Shown: piece by piece, positions 1,955-59,763 of the stretch | How the letters are laid out: every line of letters starts with the position of its first letter | Position numbering within the stretch: the first letter of the stretch is position 1 | Source of the DNA: Periplaneta americana | Lineage: Eukaryota; Arthropoda; Insecta; Blattodea; Blattidae | Length of the DNA: 64,000 bases | Direction of reading: 5' to 3' | Assembly (NCBI RefSeq): GCF_040183065.1 | Contig: NC_091119.1 | Location: 101,799,774 to 101,863,773, forward strand | Program-made: the position numbers and the translations under genes | Notes under the pieces: generated by a model | Seen by the model: the letters and a program-made list of their open reading frames with translations, nothing else | Told to the model about the DNA's origin: nothing | Databases searched by the model: none

Positions 1955-3795
1955 TGGTTTAGCAGATCAATAGACACTGCACTTTTTCAGGTTTCACGAA
2001 AACTGGAAAAGACAATTAAAGCAAAGTAGGTGGCACTAGGTGCCTTCATTGATACTGAAGGCGCCTTTGACATTACCTCCTTTAAAGCTTTTACTACAAC
2101 TGCAAAGAAACATGGTATAGATGAAACCTGTATCAGATGGATTGAGTCCATCTTGAAAGGCAGAGTGGTACATACAACCCTCATGGGCAGCAATTTAGCT
2201 GCAAAGGTCATGAGTGGATGTCCACAGGGAGGTGTATTATCACCCATACTGTGAAATTTAGTTGCAAATGGATTACTGGATGAAGTCAGTAATCTAGGAT
2301 TTGATATTATGGACTATGCTGATGATATGGCCATCATAGTTCGGGGAAAATTCACGAATACCATTAGGAAACTTATGCAAGTGGCCCTAAATAAGGTAAC
2401 GACATGGGCTGAGAGAGAAGGTCTTAAGATCAGTCCTCATAAAACAGCCTTAGTACCTTTCACCAGATAAAGAAATTTGAAGGGATTAGGACCTTATTTC
2501 TTAAAGGTGAAAAACTCAAAATGGTTGAGGAAGTCAAATACTTAGGGGTGATTTTTGACTCTAAGGTAGACTGGAATCAACATTTAAAAAGAATAACACA
2601 ACGAGCAAATACAGTTTTTGAAACTGTTAGACGCACGTACGGAAAAAAATTGGGACTAAGGCCTAGTATGATTCACTGGATCTACACTAGAATAATCAGA
2701 CCATCTATAACCTATGAGCTCTCGTTTGGTGGAAAAAAGTTCTTCAAAACAACTCCAAAATCAAGCTATGCAGAATTCAAAGAACAGCCTGCATGGCTAT
2801 AATGGGAGCTATGAAAACGACTTCCACTGCAGCTATGGAAGCACTCATAAACTTGACTCCATTAGACACAGTAGGAATGGAGGAAGCGAGACTGCAACAT
2901 TCTAAGCAACTGATATTCTCAGATGTAGAGTTGGGTTTGCTGGAATTCAAGAGATTTATGGCAGATGATATACTGTGCATGGAATCAGACCATATTAATC
3001 CTGTTCGACATTATACAAAGAATTTCAATCATCATTGACTCTGAAATATGGAAAAACAAAACTCCAACATTTCCTGAGAAGTCTCTGAGGTTCACAGACT
3101 TAGGAACTGAATCAGGAGTCTATGGCATCAGACCAATGGTTAGCTTAAGCTTCCCCTTGGGTAAATATGCCACTGTTTTTCAAACACAGATATACGCCAT
3201 TATGCAATGCGTTCTTGAAAATATAAGAAGAGCTTATATAGGAAAGCAGATTCTTATATTCTCGAATAGCCAGGCTGCCCTTATGGCTTTAAATGCCATA
3301 TTGTTACTTCAGGACTGGTTCTTAACTGCCTCAATATAATTTCGATCCTGGCAGAACAGAATGAGGTTAAACTCATCTGGGTACGAGGGAAACGAAAAAG
3401 GTGACGAACATGCAAGACAAGGAGTGGCTTCAAAATATATTGTAACAGAATATCTAGTTGTTCTGTCAGAGAAGCAATTAAAAAATGGTCCAAGGTTCAA
3501 CACTACTAAACCTGGATTAAGACACCAGGTATCAATCATGGGAAACAATTTATTATTAGACCAAGCAACAAAAGAGCTGAAATATTACTACAATGTAACA
3601 GATTTCAGCTGAGAACAGTCACAGCTTTTCTCACAGGTCATGCACCTGTGAAAAAGCATCTTAATTTAATGGGCCTACTTCAAGGTAACCTACACTGTAG
3701 ATTCTGCGGGAAGGAGGCTGAAACAGCCCAGAACATTACTTGCTTCTGTGACGCATTGGCTCGCAGAAGATACCATACTTTACCTTTGGAAAAGA
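1955..3795 (+). pseudogene. ORF2 remnant of LINE1: reverse transcriptase and RNase H
   Basis: RT core motifs are readable across frameshifts and stops: FIDTEGAFD (motif A), GCPQGGVLSPIL (B) and YADDMAI (C, near 2316, catalytic YADD kept), then EVKYLGVIFDSKVDW in the thumb region. The RNase H domain follows (FTDLGTESG, FQTQIYAI, FSNSQAALMAL). At two expected RNase H catalytic positions the residues look changed: Gln where family members have Glu (FQTQIYAI), and Asn where they have Asp (SNSQAA). Stops at 2028, 2252 and others make it non-functional. It once copied the element RNA at the target site. Confidence 0.8.
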
Positions 3796-4278
3796 TTCTC
3801 TAGAACCAAAAGATTTTGAACCGAGTTCTATATCTGAACTGTATACCTTAATCAAGTTAACAGGGCTGATGAATCGGTATTATATTATAAAACATAGGTA
3901 GCACAATAAGCTTAAGGCTGTGGTGCGTCCGGAGCAATGACGGGCCTAAATGTTGGAAAAAAAATACAACCCAAATCAGATAACAGTCTCATGTGTGGAA
4001 TGGGAGGATTTCGAAGTTTCATTATTATTACACATTTATTGACGTGGGTGTAACTATAGAATTGAAACTAATTATGTTAATAATGCACATTACATTGTCT
4101 AAAAACTTGCATTTTCAGTTTACTCGAACAAAATAATCATTACGATGCAAATGTTAATATATTTTAATAGTATTTAATAATTAACATAGGCAATTATATA
4201 AAATCTGGTACTGGTACTTAATTGGCCTGTTGAGTGGTATGAATATGTTTCTTTTTAAAGGCTACAAATTTTTTGTAT

Positions 4279-5753
4279 TCAATATCCAATACAATGGCCA
4301 ACACCTTCCTAGGACTTACAAATCCAAATATCTTGGAGTTATTTTCGATAGTAAGTTAACATGGAGCAACCATTTGAAATACTTTTCTGAAAAAGCTCGT
4401 AAAAGATTCTCCCTTTTAAAAAGACTAGCAGGAAAGAAATGGGGATGCTCTAGGAATACTTTGAACATTACATACAAAATGTTTATACAGCCAGTGCTGA
4501 CATACTGCGGAGAAATTTTAATTACTTCACCTTTCATAAACGAAATAGAATATGTTCAAAACCAAGCTCTCAGACTCATTACTGGTGGAATCAAAACAAC
4601 TCCAATAGATTCTATGAGATTCCTCACTAATATTAACAGCATCAAAATGACAATAGAAGAAAAAGCACTGATTCAATATGAAAAACTTATCAGATTACCA
4701 GGAAACAATTGGCATTCATACAGTCCTCTATGTAGATTGAAAACTTAAAAAAGTTTCATATCCATTGTTCAAGAATTAAAACAGAAAATCAATATCCCGA
4801 ATTTAAAAGAAAACTTACAAATTAAACCAAACCCTTTAACTCTATTAAATATAGAATATAATCTAAATTTAACAGAAGATATACTGAAATCAGAAGTAAA
4901 CACTGAAATACTGAAACAATTGTTTTTAGAGATAATTAATATTAGGTACCCTCCACAAAACTGGCTTCATTTATACACTGACGGATCCTTGATCTCCAGA
5001 GAACAAGATGCCAGTGCAGGTGTTACGTGCTGTCTCTTCTCACTTTATAGATCTCTTGGTTATGGAACAACAAGTTTTGATGGTGAAATCATTGCAATAA
5101 GTGAAAATCTCAGGAATCTTCTATGCCACATCAATAAATTTAAGAATGTAGTTATATTGTCAGACTCCAAAGCAGCTATTCTATCAATAGTCTCTAAACA
5201 CACACCTTCATCTCAAACAGCAGAAATAACTAAAGTGCTCTCTCAATTAATATCAATCAATAAAAGAATTGTATTCCAATGGATACCATCCGATTGTGGA
5301 ATTCTGGGAAACGAGAATGCGGAAGCTTTAGCAGAGAAGGGCAGCACTGCTACTTACAGACCTGTTACTAAATCCATGTATTACTCTGTGAAAAGATTTA
5401 TTAAATCTACATACTTAGACTTTAACAAACAAAATTTGATAACACAATCCCAAGGGAAAAAATGGAACTCTCTGCATCAAAATTCACAGTTAATTCCCGA
5501 TTTACCACGAAAATCGTCTGTAGCTGCATTTAGATTGGCAACAGGCCATGATTGTTTGGCCAAACACCTGCATAGAATTGGAATATATCAGTCCCCTAAC
5601 TGCCCATTGTGCAACTCAAACCAAGAAATGGATTCTGAACCTCAAAATGTGTGCTTCAGTGGCTGGCCATGATAATATCTTTGAAAAATATTGGAGTGCA
5701 AGAGGTCAAATGACTTTATTGTCAAATGCCTGGCATTAGAAAACAACAACAAC
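4279..5753 (+). mobile_element. LINE2: 5'-truncated RNase H-bearing LINE
   Basis: A 1475-bp non-LTR insertion flanked by a perfect 13-bp target-site duplication, AAATTTTTTGTAT (4266-4278 and 5754-5766). It keeps only the RT thumb, RNase H and the zinc-knuckle C-terminus, and ends in a (CAA)n tail after the stop, as expected for 5'-truncated target-primed reverse transcription. The homologous position in repeat B copy 2 (near 48393) is uninterrupted, giving a paralogous empty site. A second fragment of the family lies at 15664-16009 on the minus strand. Confidence 0.93.
4281..5735 (+). pseudogene. LINE2 ORF2 C-terminal part (RT thumb, RNase H, zinc knuckle)
   Basis: One reading frame carries KYLGVIFDSKLTWSNHL (RT thumb) and GKKWGCSRNT, then RNase H with YTDGS, GEIIAI, SDSKAA and GNENAEALA (the catalytic Asp/Glu/Asp/Asp positions all look present), then CPLCNSNQEMDSE. 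A TAA at 4746 interrupts the frame once. Near 5641 a one-base shift moves translation out of frame; the remaining C-terminus (ending SNAWH) is readable in the next frame. The sister fragment at 15664-16009 keeps this junction in frame. Otherwise little decayed, so the insertion is moderately young. Confidence 0.88.
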
Positions 5754-30072: not shown

Positions 30073-30831
30073 ATGCGAAGATTGTGGCTTTGGAGGAAAT
30101 GTTACTTCATCAAGTAGAGTAAAGTGTGATGATACTTCAAGCTTTGCTTTTGATGTCAAACGCAGGATTGTACGAGCATTTTCCGAAATTGGAAAAGGTT
30201 ACATGGTACAAGAAAGTTTCGCAATGGTCATGGATATGAACCCATTGTCTGAAACTGCATACAATGATCATCTAAGTAAAATATGTGTTACTGCTACACA
30301 CACTAGTACAGATGTTCTAGCTTATCCTAGACAAGAAGTGCTTGATACCCACAAGCTACATAATATTATGGTCAGTTTCGATGGTACTTGGAACAAACGA
30401 GGCCATACCTCAAATTTTGGTGTCGGTTGTGTGACTGATGTAGTCACAGGATATGTGACAGATTTTGTTGTTTTATCGAAAACAGCCAAAGATGTTCAGT
30501 AGCAAAGAAAAGCTTCATGAGAACAGTGCAGAATTTCACTTTTGGTTTGAAGGCCATAAACCAGATTGTATCATAAACTATATTGGTTCCTCTCCTGCCA
30601 TGGAATGAGAAGCTGCTGTACGCTTGTGGACAAGATCTGTTGGCCATGGATTTAGATATACAACAATACTCAGTGATGGGGATTCCAAAACTTTCAAAGA
30701 ACTGGTCGGGCTAAATGTATATGGAGACAGTCACCCCATTGAGAAAGAGGAATGGGTGAACCATGTTCTGAAATGAATGGGCACTGCTTTACATCAACTT
30801 ATTAGTGAGACAAAGAAGGGCACCACTTTAG
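30073..30831 (+). pseudogene. Mutator-like transposase pseudogene
   Basis: Open from CEDCGFGGNVTSSS (a Cys pair near the start) through FDVKRRIVRAFSEIGKGYM, SFAMVMDMNPLSETAY and VSFDGTWNKRGHTSNFGVGC (catalytic-region signature, Asp in SFDGTW) to VTGYVTDFVVLSKTAKDVQ. After a stop at about 30500 and frame changes: EFHFWFEGHKPDCIINYIGS, GFRYTTILSDGDSKTF (second catalytic-region Asp), VYGDSHPIEKEEWVNHV and MGTALHQLISETKKGTTL. This order matches the arthropod proteins annotated as Mutator-like transposase domain. It breaks off at GGCCCGGTTCACACG (30832). Catalysed cut-and-paste transposition when intact. Confidence 0.85.
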
Positions 30832-36138: not shown

Positions 36139-36241
36139 AAATTAGTAATAAGTATACATATTGTTACTTCAATTTCAATCTCATATCCCAAAGAAAACAC
36201 CACACCATCAGTTCATTATTAAGCTTGCATATTCTGCCCTC

Positions 36242-36465
36242 CCAAGCCAAAAGGGCGTATCTCAATGATTTTCTGAAAATCAGTTTTTGAAATAATTGGA
36301 TAGTTCAGATGCTAATATATCTATTTCCTAAAGGAAATGGCCGTTTCTCAATAAATTGTGCCTTTAAGATGTGATTTAATGAAAGCCGTATCTCAAAATT
36401 AATATGAATTCCTAAGCGAATTTGGCGGAAGTTCATTTTTCTAAGCAAAAAGGCCGTTTCTCAGG
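36242..36465 (+). repeat. Short-motif array A upstream of the DUF7869-like pseudogene
   Basis: Five same-orientation copies of a ~24-bp motif in 225 bp (36242, 36327, 36376, 36411, 36440). Typical cores: AAAAGGGCGTATCTCAA, AAATGGCCGTTTCTCAA, GAAAGCCGTATCTCAA and AAAAAGGCCGTTTCTCAGG. The array lies just upstream of the transposase-like pseudogene starting near 36855. Possible transposase-binding subterminal repeats (inference). Confidence 0.6.
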
Positions 36466-36854
36466 CATACGTTCTTTTCGCTTAGTATTTCCTATTTGCC
36501 ATTCTAGTCAAATTAGACGTAACTGCATTAGTAACAAATCCTTCAGCATGTAATCGCCACTACCCGAATACTCATTTCTCATAGTTTAAACATAGTTCTT
36601 ATAATTAATTCATTGTTGATCATGAAAATTAATATGCAAGGTGTGTTCCAATTAATTTTTCTAGCTTATTATTGAAAACATGTCAATTTTCATTTTCCTG
36701 TTTGTTGTTATGTAGCCAAAACACAGAATATTGATTCTACTCAACCTTATTTTAGAAACACCATTATAATCACCATGTAAGTAAAATAATTTATATTTTT
36801 ATCACTATTGGACTGATAGTTCATATGCACATATGTTTTAGAGACAACGAAATG

Positions 36855-37830
36855 GACAATGAAATTATTCGTAGACACATAAATTCATTTAATCCTACCA
36901 TATCACATTAGTACATTACCGGAGGGAACATGCATCTAATCGTCTTTATTTACCAAGTGATATAACGCTGACTGCCATGCACCATGATTTTTTTACTCAG
37001 AATGTTAATTAAAAATGTTCATATGAAAAGTACAGAACGGTAGCCAGTGAAATGGACATATCTTTTGATAAACTGTGAAATCTTCAATGCCACACAAAGG
37101 AAAATTTGGACACTAATTTTTAAACTTGTAAAATGTGGAAAACATATTGAGAGAGCATCAAAATCTCGGGCCAAATATAGAGAAGATGCTGAAAAAATTG
37201 AAGAGATTAACAAAATAATTTATTATGCAGATCTTCAAAGAGTTATCTTGTTGCCAAGACTAGACACATTTAAGGTAGCTATATTCACAAGTGTTTGACT
37301 GTCTACATGAGAGCTTCGTTCCTGTTGGGGGTGGGGAACAAAACAAAAAATGTGCAAGCCGTTTGCAGCTGTCCGGCACGAGGCTCTCTTTAAAAGGAGC
37401 AAAGAAGAAATAGTAAGCACTTTCTACAATTTTTTCAAGTACAAGAGAGATTGTTCAAAATTACTCTATGGTTGGACAACTGCACGGTCCAGAACAAAAA
37501 TTGGACATTCTTTTCATTTTTGATTTACATTGTTAATTCAAATGAAGTAAGTACTAATGAAATTGTGATAAGTTATTTTGAACTAGGCCATTCGTTAATG
37601 GCTTCTGATCCTTTCATCACAAAGTAGAACAGTCAGTGAAAAGACGTGGATATAAAGTATATGATTTTGCAGACTTTGTAGATGCAGTAAAATCGGCATC
37701 TTACCAGACTAAGATACTGCCAGTGGAGCTTCAGTATTTTTTCATTTGGTCTGGCTACTCATCACAATATAAATTTAACCTGATTAGTTTATTCATTACT
37801 TTTGTAAGGCTAAAGATACAATCAATATAA
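36855..37830 (+). pseudogene. DUF7869-family transposase-like pseudogene (element A)
   Basis: Frames joined across lesions read INSFNPTISHY, REHASNRLYLPSDITLTAMH, KCSYEKYRTVASEMDISFDK, then KCGKHIERASKSRAKYREDA and YADLQRVILLPRLDTFKVAI. After about 37298, in another frame: HESFVPVG, YWLDNCTVQ-like WLDNCT, EIVISYFELGHSLMASDPFH and KVYDFADFVDAVKSA. This matches an arthropod family I remember as DUF7869-containing uncharacterised proteins. Conserved acidic residues (YADLQ, LDNC, GHS..A.D) fit an RNase H-fold nuclease, so a DNA transposase is plausible but inferred. Stops and shifts inactivate it; the C-terminus past 37830 is not readable. Confidence 0.7.
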
Positions 37831-38355
37831 ATCCCAACTTATCATGTCACACTCAGTCTCTTTCTTTGGAATATCATTTTTTTTATGAATGATGTGTTTC
37901 ATCCACTTAATACAGTATAATATTATACTACTATGCAATTTAAATGAATATTCCTTCTTAACTCTCTATTATGTTATTAAGATTTAAAACACAAGTACAA
38001 TATTAAGAAATCAGTGTTAGTACTTCTGTTTTACAGACAATATAGATAACATTAAACAGAAAGAAGCCATATAAAAATAACGACATAAAATTTCACGTTT
38101 TGTTTGAAGTTTGTGCACCACTGTTTTCTTAATCCAACAGGTTGCTTATTCATATACACAGCCCTTCTTCTTTCCATACTTAGCGCTTGCTGCCCGCGCA
38201 CGACATCAAGGTCAGAAAAATGCGCTCGCTTTGACATCACTGGGCTATGCTTTACAGAATTGCCCAGTGTTATTCATATTGTAAATTTGTGTACATCACA
38301 CTGTTTAACATGAATATTGGAATAAGCTTACTCCTGTCTTTCTGTATTTCGACGG
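37831..38355. other. Unassigned sequence between elements A and B
   Basis: AT-rich with no readable coding sequence or repeated motif. Confidence 0.4.
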
Positions 38356-38620
38356 CTTAGTGTCAAAGGACACTAAGTCCAAAAATCGACTTTTTGAGTT
38401 ATTTATAGTATCATATTGTACAAAGTAGCCTTTATATAGTGTGAAAGTAATATGTCTCTACAAATAATAGTTTTATTTATTTTTTTTTTTTGAGATAGTG
38501 TTGTGTTAATTTAGACAGATGCTGAGTGTCAAACAACACTATCTAGACTTAGTTTTCTTTGACAGTAACAAAATATAGACTAGAAGAACACTAAGTCGAG
38601 ATAGTGTTCTTTGTCACTAA
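38356..38620. repeat. Short-motif array B, left
   Basis: Copies of a GTGTCAAAGAACACTATCTC-like motif in both orientations: CTTAGTGTCAAAGGACACTA (38356), GAGATAGTGTTGTGT (38492), GTGTCAAACAACACTATCT (38526), TTCTTTGACAGT (38554), and AGAACACTAAGTCGAGATAG running into TGTTCTTTGTCAC (38585-38616). The partner array is at 41396-41665, on the other side of the pseudogene it brackets. Confidence 0.65.
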
Positions 38621-38869
38621 ATTATTTAACATTTCTAAGATTTTATTGTTGACACTGCCTCAGAACAAACAACGAAGAATGTAATACAGTCACCATACTG
38701 TTCATTGTTAGAGAATTTATAATTTTTTAATTAATAGAACAAGAATTCTTAAATCAATCCAGTTTGTAAGAAGTTTACAGTTTGTAAGAGACGCAGCACA
38801 GGATTGCTCTGATAATTTGATACTTTTTTATTAGAGCTAAGAAATACTCAGATCGAATATTAGGGGCAG

Positions 38870-40690
38870 GTTAATGGTGAAGTTGGCTTTAGCGACATAT
38901 AAAATTTCGCAAGGAATGAGTGATGAAGCTAATAAGAGCATAGCTGTTAGTAGTCCATGTCCAACGCTGGATAACAGGAAAGCCCACAAGTCCTTAAATA
39001 GTGGAAAGAAATTGCTGGTAAAAAAAGTTCTAGACAAAGATTGTACAAAATGTCTTCTTAAATGCAACCTCTCATTTAGTGCTAAAGACAAACATGAAAT
39101 TCATAAACAATATTGGAATATTGAGAATAACAATTTGAAGCGGCAATTTTTTTATGGGCCTTACAGAAGTGAAGGAAATCCAAATCCAAAAAGGATGAAT
39201 CTAGAAGGCGAAACACCAGTTCTTGCCTGGTGAAAAATAAAGAAAACATATGGATATGCAGGGGTTTTTTTTCTCGCCATCTTTGACATATCCAACACAA
39301 TAATAGAATATATTTTGAAAAAAGTGACAATAACATAGTGAAAACTGATCGAAGAGGAAAGCATGAACACGGAGTAAAGAAATCTGAAAATACTCGTGAA
39401 TGTATAGTGAACCACACTGCATCATTTTCAAGAGTACTGTCCAACAAGAGTACAAGAAACGAACTGCAAGAGAATATCTGTCTTGTGATTTAAATTTACA
39501 AAAATATGTATGAATTGTATAAAGAAAAATTCAGATTTTGAACCGATTTCTATATCTGGACTGTATACCTTAATCAAGGTAACAGGGCTGATGAATCGGT
39601 ATTAAATTATAAAACATAGGCAGCACAATAAGTCTAAGGTTGCAGTGCGTCCGGAGCAATGACGGGCCTAAATGTTGGGGGGGGGGGGGGGGGACACAGG
39701 AATGCTAATGTTAAAGCAGAAAAACCTTTCATATTATCGTCATATTTTCAAAAATAATTTTAATATACCTTTTCATAATTCCAGAAAGGATCAATGAAAG
39801 TAAGAAGATAGAGACGGAGGAAGTTCATCAGTCCCACATTGAAAGAAGGAAGCAGCTCGTCAAGTAACAAAAAGATTACAAAATTTAGAGCATCAGTAAA
39901 TGATCTTTACTTTTTAAAATTTGATTTGAACCTGTGCGCAATGGTCCAGATGTTAAAATGGAATGAGTGTTTTATAAACGTGGATTACCTGTACATAATT
40001 TGACCAAGTATGGATGTAGCCAACAGAACAGCAGGAAATTTTTTATGGAACGAGAAAATTGCAGAAAGGGGAGCTGCAGAGGTACCATCATGTCTCTTTG
40101 CTCAAATGAAAAAACTGCATAATGGTAAAAGGTTCTGCTTCATGTCCGATACCTGTGGAGGACTTTGCTTATATCAACCATGCTCCTCTACGCTGTGAAT
40201 GTTTTGGACGTATCTCAAATTGAACTTTATTTTTAACTAAGAAATTCACAAATGGACACAGTCCACACGCACATTGAAAAAAAACAGCAAAATATACAGA
40301 AATATTTGATCCATCAGAGTGGTATACTATAGTTAGAGCTGTATCAAAAATAGAAGTGGAACAGAGTAATGTAATGATGTAAGAGAAATTCAGAAGACAT
40401 TAATAAAGAACAAGAAAGTTGACACTAATGGAAACATTGTAGATGGCTGGATATAGTGTGGTTCCAGTATCGGAAAAGTGACAGTGAACATGTATTTTTT
40501 TTAAATACAATTATGATGAAGAATTCCATAAATTCAAGGTACAGAGGAAGATTACACGTGGATTTAGGCTGGATAATCTTCAACTTAAACCAAAGGATCA
40601 TGGTGCACTGAAAATATACAAGATTAGAAAATGAATAATGTATTGCAACTGTGTAAACAGAACATTATACCAGGAAATTACCATTTCCTT
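38870..40690 (+). pseudogene. DUF7869-family transposase-like pseudogene (element B)
   Basis: N-terminal Cys-rich part: DCTKCLLKCNLSFSAKDKHE and IHKQYWNIENN (open 38874-39233). Then VCKGFF-like, TDRRGKHEHGVKK and REYLSCDLNLQK, which ends where a LINE1 3' fragment is inserted (39531-39693). After it: LKFDLNLCAMVQML, AGNFLWNEKIAERGAAEVPS, CLFAQMKKL and MSDTCGGLCL (the family usually has SDxCGGQN), FDPSEWYTIVRAVSKIE, and near 40550 KVQRKITRGFRLDNLQ. The order matches the DUF7869-type family but a different subfamily from element A. Stops and frameshifts throughout. Repeated motifs flank it on both sides. Confidence 0.7.
39531..39693 (+). mobile_element. LINE1 3' end fragment with a poly(G) tract
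   Basis: Positions 39531-39676 match the 3' end of LINE1 (3811-3955) at about 90 percent by eye, ending GACGGGCCTAAATGTTGG. Seventeen consecutive G (39677-39693) follow, where the other copy has poly(A). The insertion falls inside the DUF7869-like pseudogene and therefore postdates it. Confidence 0.85.
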
Positions 40691-41395
40691 TACAACAGTT
40701 TAAAAATGAACAGGAAATCGTAGAAGAAGATACTCAAAATGAAGAGCAATAAGTGATTATAAAATCAAGAAGAAATTTTAAATTTTTATATGAGAGGTAT
40801 GGATATTGATACTATTCAAAACAAATACTGAATAAAATCAAATATAATCCTATTCAGATTATAATTTTATTCAATGTCATTTAGGGTATAAATTCTGAGT
40901 TAAGTGTGTATTTTCGTTTTATTACGTGCAGACAGACTTTTAAATCAACTGAATTTGTAGGCTTTGCTATTTTTAAAAATAAATTGATAATTAGTTAAAT
41001 AACTTTTTCATCGAAACTCCTCATCAGCTGTGGTAAATTAAAGTAGTGTAACATTAGCAACTATTTAAAAACACTGTTGTTCTAAAATGCAATGTAAATT
41101 GAAGATAACTTTTACTCTTTTATTATTTTATAAATGCACTGTTAAAATTATTATTTCAGATAATAGTATAAATTAATCTAATAATGATAACATTATGCTT
41201 TTATGCTTTATAAATAATATTAACTGGCACTGTTATAATAATGCAGATATGTTTTGAGTTTAGATAATATTCCTTTATGAAGAAGAAGAAATATGATAAT
41301 TGCAGCTCTCCACAATAAGTTAAATTTATTAATTTGGATTGTCAAATAGATCTATAATTTTTTACTAGAGTGTTTGAATTCAATATTTTGGCATT
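40691..41395. other. Unassigned stretch inside putative element B
   Basis: AT-rich 3' non-coding part between the pseudogene and the right motif array; nothing recognised. Confidence 0.4.
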
Positions 41396-41665
41396 TATTT
41401 TTAACACTATCTACTAAATTGAATGCTTCGTGTCAGTAACAAAGAACACTATCTCCAAAATATGTTAATTTTTAAGTCAATATTAAATATTTCTAGAAAA
41501 TATGTATTGTATTGTCTTTAAGGTTATATCCTATATATATTAACTGGTTTAAATTTTATCAACATATCTCTTAAATTAAAGCAGTAACATAAGAAAATAT
41601 ACACAATTGAACTGTTTTTTGCCTCTCCTGTAAAGTTGTGATTTTGGAGTTAGTGTTCTTTGACA
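41396..41665. repeat. Short-motif array B, right
   Basis: TTAACACTATCTAC (41401), GTAACAAAGAACACTATCTC (41437) and GGAGTTAGTGTTCTTTGACA (41646): the same motif as at 38356-38620. The two arrays bracket the DUF7869-like pseudogene, suggesting the original element spanned roughly 38.35-41.67 kb. Confidence 0.6.
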
Positions 41666-42195
41666 TTATTGTTGTACACACCAGGTCGAATTATGTTTCT
41701 AATTGTTTCAATACATACTATGAAAGGTATTAAAATTGGTGAAGTTCCTATGTTTTGTCATCAGAAGGAATTGCTAAATTACTATAATTTGGTTTAAGAG
41801 ACCATTACTTGTTTTCAATCCTCTGATGATTCGCGTAGAAAAAACATAGCTAAGCAGACCGAACAGGCGCTACTAAGAGCGAACAGCCCGTCTCAATAAA
41901 ATCGTAATGAAACAGAAGCGCTACGCATTCTCATACGCACTGAGTACTTATTCTTCTCGAAATTATTTCATGGAGCGAGTCTTGATGGAAGTCCACTAGT
42001 AAGTAGGCAACAGTTTCGCACGACTGTCCACAAGTAGCATATTACAGGGGCACTTGTTTACTGCACATGCACAGTGTGTGGTAAGCGAAACTAGAACAAT
42101 AAGGGAGTTCCAATTTTTTTTTTCCGTATCTATACAGTACATACTCGTAGATCTGTGGTTAATACTTTTGTACACGGTCTGTAACAGTTGGTTTT
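41666..42195. other. Unassigned sequence
   Basis: No family recognised. Confidence 0.4.
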
Positions 42196-58429: not shown

Positions 58430-58740
58430 TTCTGGAAGGAATCTGTGGGACTTTTCCAGATGATCAGTCTTTTGTTTATTAATTGGCGAACTTCCTTTAT
58501 ATGATATGGTTTTAGGGCTCTGAGGAATCAATGAACGTTCTGATAATACAAAAGTATGTTCCATTATTCTTTCATCTATGTGTACTTTTGCTTTTACAAC
58601 TCCGAAATTTTCACTGGAGTAATGAAACTGATGGAATTCAGTTTAAAATGGTTCTTACTGAGAACGTGGGGTTCCTCTCACTTGAATTTCCAGAGACTAT
58701 GTATTCTTGCGATAATGGTGAGGCCACCATTCTTTAAAAT
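58430..58740 (-). pseudogene. Possible DUF7869-like C-terminal tail (weak)
   Basis: Minus-strand frames give LPQSPKTISYKGSSPINKQK and HRFLPENE-like endings, reminiscent of the C-terminus of DUF7869-type proteins, within the span of motif set C. Stops are frequent and no upstream core could be read. Treat as a hint only. Confidence 0.2.
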
Positions 58741-59763
58741 CAATATTTCAGTTCTTTCTGGAACTGTAACTTAAAGTAATTTTTTGAACTGATTAACTTT
58801 TTCAGTTTCCTTTCTATAACGCCAAAATCACGGTCGCAGGGGAGGAAGGAATGGCCTCTTATGGGGAAGTATTGTGTGATTGTTTCAAACCTTCCCTGTG
58901 CTGGGGAAAATTGTATTTAATATACATTGTTACCAAACTATAATAATTATTTTTAATTAATTGATGGTAAATCTTATGCATGTGCTGCCAATCTAAGAAT
59001 CTAAAATATTGAGAAACCTCACAAGTTCTGAATATGTGTGGTTTCTCTTCATATTGGAAATAAGTTGAACTGAATTCTGGCATAGGATATGATGGAAGAT
59101 GTAGTGTCCAGTGACGATTCCTCCATGAAGGATATGTGGATGATCCTACAGTTTAATTTCGTGCCTCTGAGGATAGAAAACATTTTAATGACAGATTTTA
59201 TTTTTAATGCTTCCCGATGTAATAATTTTCTTCAAACTTTCACTTTCTGTCGTGAGTTGTCGCCACTGCACATCTCAGACCTTAGGAAAACTTTCCGAGG
59301 AACCATCCAAATATCTTACAATTAATATTACAGCAAACGGCTTTTTCTAGCAGTGAAGTTACAGACAGGGGTGAGTGCGGAGGGCGGGGTATGGCTTGCC
59401 TTTAACCGCATTTGAGGATATGACCGTATATCCTAATACTACGACCCTTCTTTCTGGGTGGTGGTGAGGAAACCCTATCAGAGACTACAATACGAATTTC
59501 AAGTACCCTTGTAGCCTCCTTAATTGCAGTTCATTGGTCATTTTAAAAGGCCGGAATAAATGAAATAATAATTTAAAATGATATAACATAAAAAATAAAA
59601 TGAATCAAAACCAAAATTACATAAAAATAAATAAAATAAGCTATAGGCTAATAAAACACAAGAATTAACAGAACTTTTAGATGACAGGACTGCCGAACGA
59701 ATATCTGAAGTTGCATTTGATCATTTAGAAGAATGTAACTGTAGCAAGAAATTAGTTGCGCAT
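58741..59763. other. Unassigned sequence
   Basis: Apart from motif-set-C copies near 59003-59050, nothing recognised. Confidence 0.4.

Follow-up and report, generated by a model that had tools for sequence, protein, structure and literature searches.

Dead DUF7869-type transposons with family-specific subterminal repeats in the genome of Periplaneta americana, most probably of the Sola type

Sola transposons are described as having an Asp-Asp-Asp (DDD) transposase, 4-bp target duplications, a length of 2-9 kb in most cases, highly variable ends and a distribution over bacteria and metazoans (PMC10741241); their inverted repeats range over 11-1124 bp in printed descriptions. The Sola2 group is described with AWWT duplications and short inverted ends (PMC3627910), and an arthropod survey lists Sola among the widespread transposons of these animals (PMC6327564). 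In this study, we analysed a repeat-rich stretch of 64 kb from contig NC_091119.1 of the American cockroach, Periplaneta americana (hereafter the window, with positions counted from its first base), together with the 3.23-Gb assembly of the same genome, and examined two broken genes of DUF7869 type, A and B, each accompanied by arrays of a short motif. We conclude with considerable confidence that A and B belong, as dead copies, to two different families in one large group of cut-and-paste transposons with a DUF7869 transposase, most probably Sola. Among the described systems compared here, and as far as the passages compared go, Sola and above all Sola2 come closest: the three-Asp pattern, the 4-bp duplication, the variable inverted ends and the occurrence in bacteria and animals are common to both, and most families studied here share the AWWT target of Sola2. 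Since the duplication, the DDD pattern, the ends and the bacterial relatives all fit the printed Sola descriptions, the possibility of an undescribed DNA-transposon superfamily, raised in the first-pass annotation of this DNA, is unlikely; very probably the group is the Sola superfamily, beside which it is set by description and not by sequence.

Elements A and B and their motif arrays

Element A (36234-37785) begins after TATT (36230-36233), presumably the left half of a 4-bp target duplication of which the right half is lost; this boundary was taken from eight genomic copies. Its left terminal inverted repeat (TIR; CTGCCCTCCCAAGCCAAAAGGGCGTATCTCAA, 36234-36265, + strand) returns in inverted orientation at the right-hand end of full copies, and the inner part of the TIR is the first copy of motif A, at 36254. 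Three further copies of the GGCCGTTTCTCA type follow within 36339-36464 (36339-36350, 36385-36395 and 36453-36463), all four clear copies lying on the + strand. An array of five copies had been reported in front of A; the array stands, with four copies counted, and a fifth one sought within it was not found. The single other match to GCCGTATCTCAA in the window (one mismatch) lies at 40207, within B. The coding remnant of A occupies 36893-37785 on the + strand, matches DUF7869 at 37457-37609 and, by homology to full copies, is 3'-truncated at 37785, so that the right array and right end of this copy are lost.

The assembly contains 40 places that match the left end of A with 96-100% identity, among them the window itself. 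All eight copies fetched have the array and the sequence past it in common, and the three followed further also share the coding region; array and coding region are thus parts of one element, as had been supposed, and an end of homology between them, named in advance as evidence to the contrary, did not appear. Homology seemed to break off at 36544 in the majority of copies, but this turned out to reflect an indel only. The three full copies traced to the right end are 2492-2519 bp long, carry inverted ends of about 36 nt (CTGCCCTCCCAAGCCAAAAGG, with one or two changes) and are flanked by exact 4-bp duplications, TATA, TATA and TACA.

Element B (38350-41668) follows ATTT (38346-38349), presumably again the left half of a target duplication, with the boundary given by 20 genomic left ends. 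Its left TIR (CGACGGCTTAGTGTCAAAGGACACTAAGTCCAAAA, 38350-38384, + strand), placed by alignment of copies, and its right TIR (41642-41668, - strand), which lacks the final 8 nt relative to full copies, enclose a left array of six motif B cores in both orientations (38368-38609), a broken DUF7869-type coding remnant on the + strand (38958-40162, in blocks 38958-39457 and 39905-40162, the N-terminal part being nearest to the genomic relatives L012/L013) and a right array of three cores (41402-41658). The claim of about nine motif copies on both sides of B and in both orientations holds good, with nine copies of the 11-base core (one mismatch allowed) at 38368-41658, six on the left and three on the right, on both strands, where 30 shuffles of the region gave a mean of 0.30 cores and a maximum of 2. 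The entire window holds 17 such cores, 8 of them outside B, and the 18-mer GTCAAAGAACACTATCTC of motif B, with up to three mismatches, has seven matches in the window, six of them within 38362-41664, against an expectation of 0.06 per window. At the scale of the window both motif types are concentrated in the two elements. The coordinates first assigned to A and B were slightly shifted relative to the copies as delimited here.

The left end of B likewise occurs at 40 places (94-100% identity, window included). In the 20 left ends fetched, some of which are interdependent (flanks are common to L033 and L038-L041, and likewise to L048, L049 and the window), the shared sequence starts at CGACGG (exact in 15), corresponding to 38350, and the flanks before it differ. 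Four longer copies (L050-L053) end on the right in TAAGCCGTCG, measure 2007-3546 bp and have inverted ends of about 37 bp; their duplications are exact in three (AATT, ATTT, ACAT) and inexact in L051. Open frames in L050-L052 reach at most 143 amino acids, with stops and frame breaks at different places in each copy. A start of the B TIR at a GTCAAAG block, with a TA or TTA duplication, was considered and dropped because the copies begin 8-11 nt further out, at CGACGG. Because the right third of A and the final 8 bases at the right end of B are missing, mobility of either copy is improbable.

It is scarcely credible that we are dealing with satellite or regulatory repeats, placed by chance near unrelated pseudogenes. 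The repeat-rich character of the window and the recurrence of A and B as a pair at seven other places would suit such repeats, but this explanation is already contradicted by copies whose flanks differ although both the array and the coding region are common to them, and whose ends are sharp and flanked by 4-bp duplications.

Genomic relatives, element ends and target duplications

DUF7869 was matched by all 150 sequences scored, out of 2969 first-look candidates in the cockroach assembly, with frames of up to 686 amino acids, and by none in 14 control genomes. Twenty loci, picked for long frames, were fetched from the assembly, and in comparison with the window their proteins matched both A (best E 9.5e-7) and B (best E 3.8e-8; E-values for the set of 20 proteins). 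The two pseudogenes therefore belong to one protein group, which bears out the relatedness of the two proteins, here by way of their shared relatives. The profile search proposed in the first-pass annotation was less clear for the pseudogenes themselves: a piece of A (37394-37624) matched PF25273 (DUF7869) marginally, with E=2.7e-5 and 24.3 bits, slightly under the curated cut-off of 26, and B gave no Pfam match, also with its pieces joined by X.

Inverted ends surround the frame in 16 of the 20 loci. In 15 of them the arms align over 29-67 nt and the element is 1.4-3.4 kb long, and in L014 it measures 5.3 kb; three of 18 inverted-repeat pairs were set aside, namely that of L028 and the outer ones of L016 and L025. 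Exact 4-bp duplications flank 21 of the 23 elements with defined ends (three of the four B copies, all three A copies and L014 with ATGT included), the chance of a random 4-bp identity being about 0.006. Ten of the 21 duplications are non-palindromic (ATTT in L016, L017, L021, L024, L026 and L052, AACT in L022, ACAT in L053, ATGT in L014 and TACA in one A copy) and hence direct repeats, and in the non-palindromic cases the identity of the flanks ends at 4-5 bp. Outside family A, the 20 elements comprise 15 with exact AWWT pairs and three more with AACT, ACAT and ATGT. Multiple copies, defined inverted ends and 4-bp target duplications in the aligned copies thus support the earlier view that A and B are DNA transposons.

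The same data bear on better-known transposons with which these elements might be confused. CACTA/EnSpm elements have CACTA/CACTG termini and a Tnp2 transposase, KDZ/Zisupton elements make an 8-bp target duplication, and Kolobok/piggyBac elements use a TTAA target. The subterminal repeats, and a CACTA string inside B at 38371, would recall the first of these. The string of B is not terminal, however, and the termini found here are CGACGG, CTGCCC, GAA.. and others; the duplications are of 4 bp rather than 3 or 8 bp and are TTAA in none of the 23 elements, and DUF7869 was the sole Pfam domain above the cut-off in the six proteins scanned. Assignment of A and B to CACTA/EnSpm, KDZ/Zisupton or Kolobok/piggyBac is therefore highly improbable.

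The outer inverted-repeat pairs set aside in L016 (2231-6191) and L025 (3710-5554) are perhaps other transposons that received the elements.

Repeats of the terminal inverted repeat within the ends

Each array consists of subterminal repeats of the inner portion of its family's own TIR. This was seen in a motif matrix of 11 families with one copy each (nine from the loci, A and B), in which the first 38 nt of both ends were compared with the next 362 nt. At 11/12 identities, a threshold set after 10/12 had given too much background, the family's own inverted end was the strict maximum in all 11 families, with 35 hits on the diagonal, compared with an average of 0.15 in each of the other cells; compared with 40 shuffles of the same DNA, the repeats of the own end stood above every shuffle in 8 of the 11. 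They are strong in family A (5) and B (6) and weak in some others. At the same threshold neither the end of A nor that of B recurs in the other, so that the two motifs are distinct, as had been stated. The proposal that each lineage has a motif of its own is accordingly retained in a refined form, with the motif being a repeat of the TIR. A shared TTGAGATA core across A, B and other families was also considered (TGAGWTA 11 times, where shuffles gave 2.7 on average and 8 at most) but was uneven among the families and was not used.

Transposase sites are found subterminally in hAT and similar elements, and the motif copies inside the ends of the DUF7869 elements, presumably bound by the transposase, resemble them in this respect; hAT elements differ in transposase domain and in the length of the target duplication. 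The subterminal repeats described here are thus putative transposase binding sites. The transposase of each lineage would bind its inverted ends in their inner part as well as the subterminal copies, would then pair the ends and excise the element, and insertion would take place at AT-rich sites of 4 bp, ANNT in the other families and TAYA in family A. The arrangement suggests a rule in which the putative site of a transposase lies in the inverted end, is repeated subterminally and differs from family to family.

Alternatively, the motifs might be sites of host factors or parts of a promoter, or might be decayed inverted ends that serve no purpose. That the transposase binds them is something we infer, and beyond the inverted end some families hold few repeats (one in F5, two each in F1, F3, F6 and F8); in F5, F6 and F8, the 1, 2 and 2 hits were reached by 2, 2 and 1 of the 40 shuffles. 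Two further results speak against a family-specific repeat in every family: the interior of F6 is nearly as rich in own-end repeats as its ends (1.26 vs 2), and at other thresholds the own end was the strict maximum in fewer families (8 of 11 at 10/11 identities, 7 of 10 at 10/10). Nevertheless, host sites or leftovers of decay are an unlikely source of repeats that fit the own inverted end best in all 11 families tested and that, in A and B, occur on either side of the element and in either orientation.

The transposase, its bacterial relatives and the relation to Sola

PF25273 (DUF7869) is matched by the transposase region of insect and bacterial elements; Pfam gives no function for the domain, which here lies inside transposons. 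All six long-frame relatives scanned exceeded its cut-off (46.5-66.7 bits), and no other Pfam domain passed the curated cut-off in them. Three aspartates align across the group: the first in a DLQ/DFAQ motif (9 of 12 insect and 10 of 11 bacterial proteins, with one gap), the second in DNCxGQNKN (11 of 12 and 11 of 11) and the third in CDRDF/SPDxYFG (12 of 12 and 11 of 11). The aligned residues suggest an Asp-Asp-Asp triad, and the DUF7869 region would be an RNase H-like domain with catalytic function.

The bacterial proteins come from a search of bacterial and archaeal sequences with the insect alignment, which gave 70 pattern matches, 11 of them bacterial loci. Seven of these loci have stop-free frames of 635-668 amino acids, and the two bacterial proteins scanned against PF25273 scored 66.7 and 64.8 bits. 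One locus, L057, comes from an isolate, Desulfocicer vacuolatum DSM 3385, and its contig has 147,846 bases; in its protein (2782-4752) the three aspartates are D355, D434 and D476. Several other loci lie on contigs of metagenome-assembled genomes. Inverted ends were found at 8 of the 11 loci, with ANNT on all 16 sides; in a tree (no support values) the bacterial proteins group on their own side. In five elements (L057, L058, L060, L062 and L063) ANNT stands on both sides with differing inner bases, and in L057, from the isolate and with identical 43-bp arms, AAAT/ATTT is inverted rather than direct. No relatives were found in viral contigs; the sole viral-contig hit confirmed by tblastn, L001, opposes the reading direction of the phage-like genes around it and was discarded.

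Several results weigh against reading all these loci as one group of transposons with defined ends and 4-bp duplications. Four of the 20 cockroach loci are without usable ends plus duplication: in L010, L019 and L027 no bracketing inverted-repeat pair was found, and the 26-bp pair of L028 has no duplication. The ends counted above were placed by hand beside a 4-bp match (in bacteria, beside ANNT), the pairs of L015 (TTTT/ATTT) and L051 (AAAT/AGAT) are inexact, 11 of the 21 exact duplications are palindromic (AATT, ATAT, TATA) and indistinguishable from an extension of the inverted repeat, and the one empty site fits a single ATAT but is ambiguous. In bacteria, the duplication is exact in only 3 of 8 elements, L062 has a second possible right end, and each of four genomes holds one copy. 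The proteins gave no match in PDB (best E 0.8).

Differences from Sola, as far as the descriptions compared extend, should be set beside the likenesses. Family A has a TATA/TACA target outside the AWWT rule of Sola2, the elements measure 1.4-5.3 kb rather than the 2-9 kb of most described Sola elements, 5 of the 8 bacterial elements have inexact duplications, and subterminal arrays go unmentioned in the Sola passages compared. DUF7869 elements might then form a separate superfamily, resembling Sola only in duplication length and catalytic pattern. The target of family A and the label of unknown function that PF25273 still bears would agree with this, and the likeness to Sola is a likeness to printed descriptions. 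We consider a separate superfamily rather improbable, as the DDD pattern, the 4-bp duplications, AWWT in most of the ANNT-type elements, the variable ends and the presence in bacteria and animals all match Sola in the descriptions compared. A broader proposal, which we hold to be doubtful to a similar degree, is that DUF7869 provides the catalytic domain in an ancient DDD transposase group of bacteria and animals, separate from Sola or broader than it. In this group, each lineage would co-evolve with a motif of its own that stands in the inverted end and has subterminal copies. If this proposal is true, the at least 11 families in one genome, with their different motifs, would amount to a natural set of transposase-site pairs orthogonal to one another.

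Whether or not the group is Sola, DUF7869, listed in Pfam as a domain of unknown function, gains a likely role as the catalytic region of a transposase, and genes annotated by this domain alone may consequently be transposon debris. A literature search returned no paper mentioning DUF7869, PF25273, IPR057191 or two PANTHER identifiers, so that within the literature searched the link between domain and transposon may not be in print.

Some further features of the window deserve mention. A 146-bp stretch of B (39533-39678) recurs with 93% identity at 3811-3956; a nested insertion private to this copy of B was considered, but L051 and L052 align across it, and the stretch thus belongs to the B family or is old. 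The recurring pair of A and B left ends, about 2.1 kb apart and with 96-100% identity to 36180-38640 of the window, was found on C15 (three times), C8, C7, C21 and C3, which makes the pair part of a larger duplicated unit. A third coding fragment of DUF7869 type, absent from the first-pass annotation, lies at 58430-58925 on the - strand (tblastn with the 20 genomic proteins, best E 4.7e-13), and a piece of a different, Mutator-like transposase (PF20700, E=3.9e-9) lies at 30203-30499.

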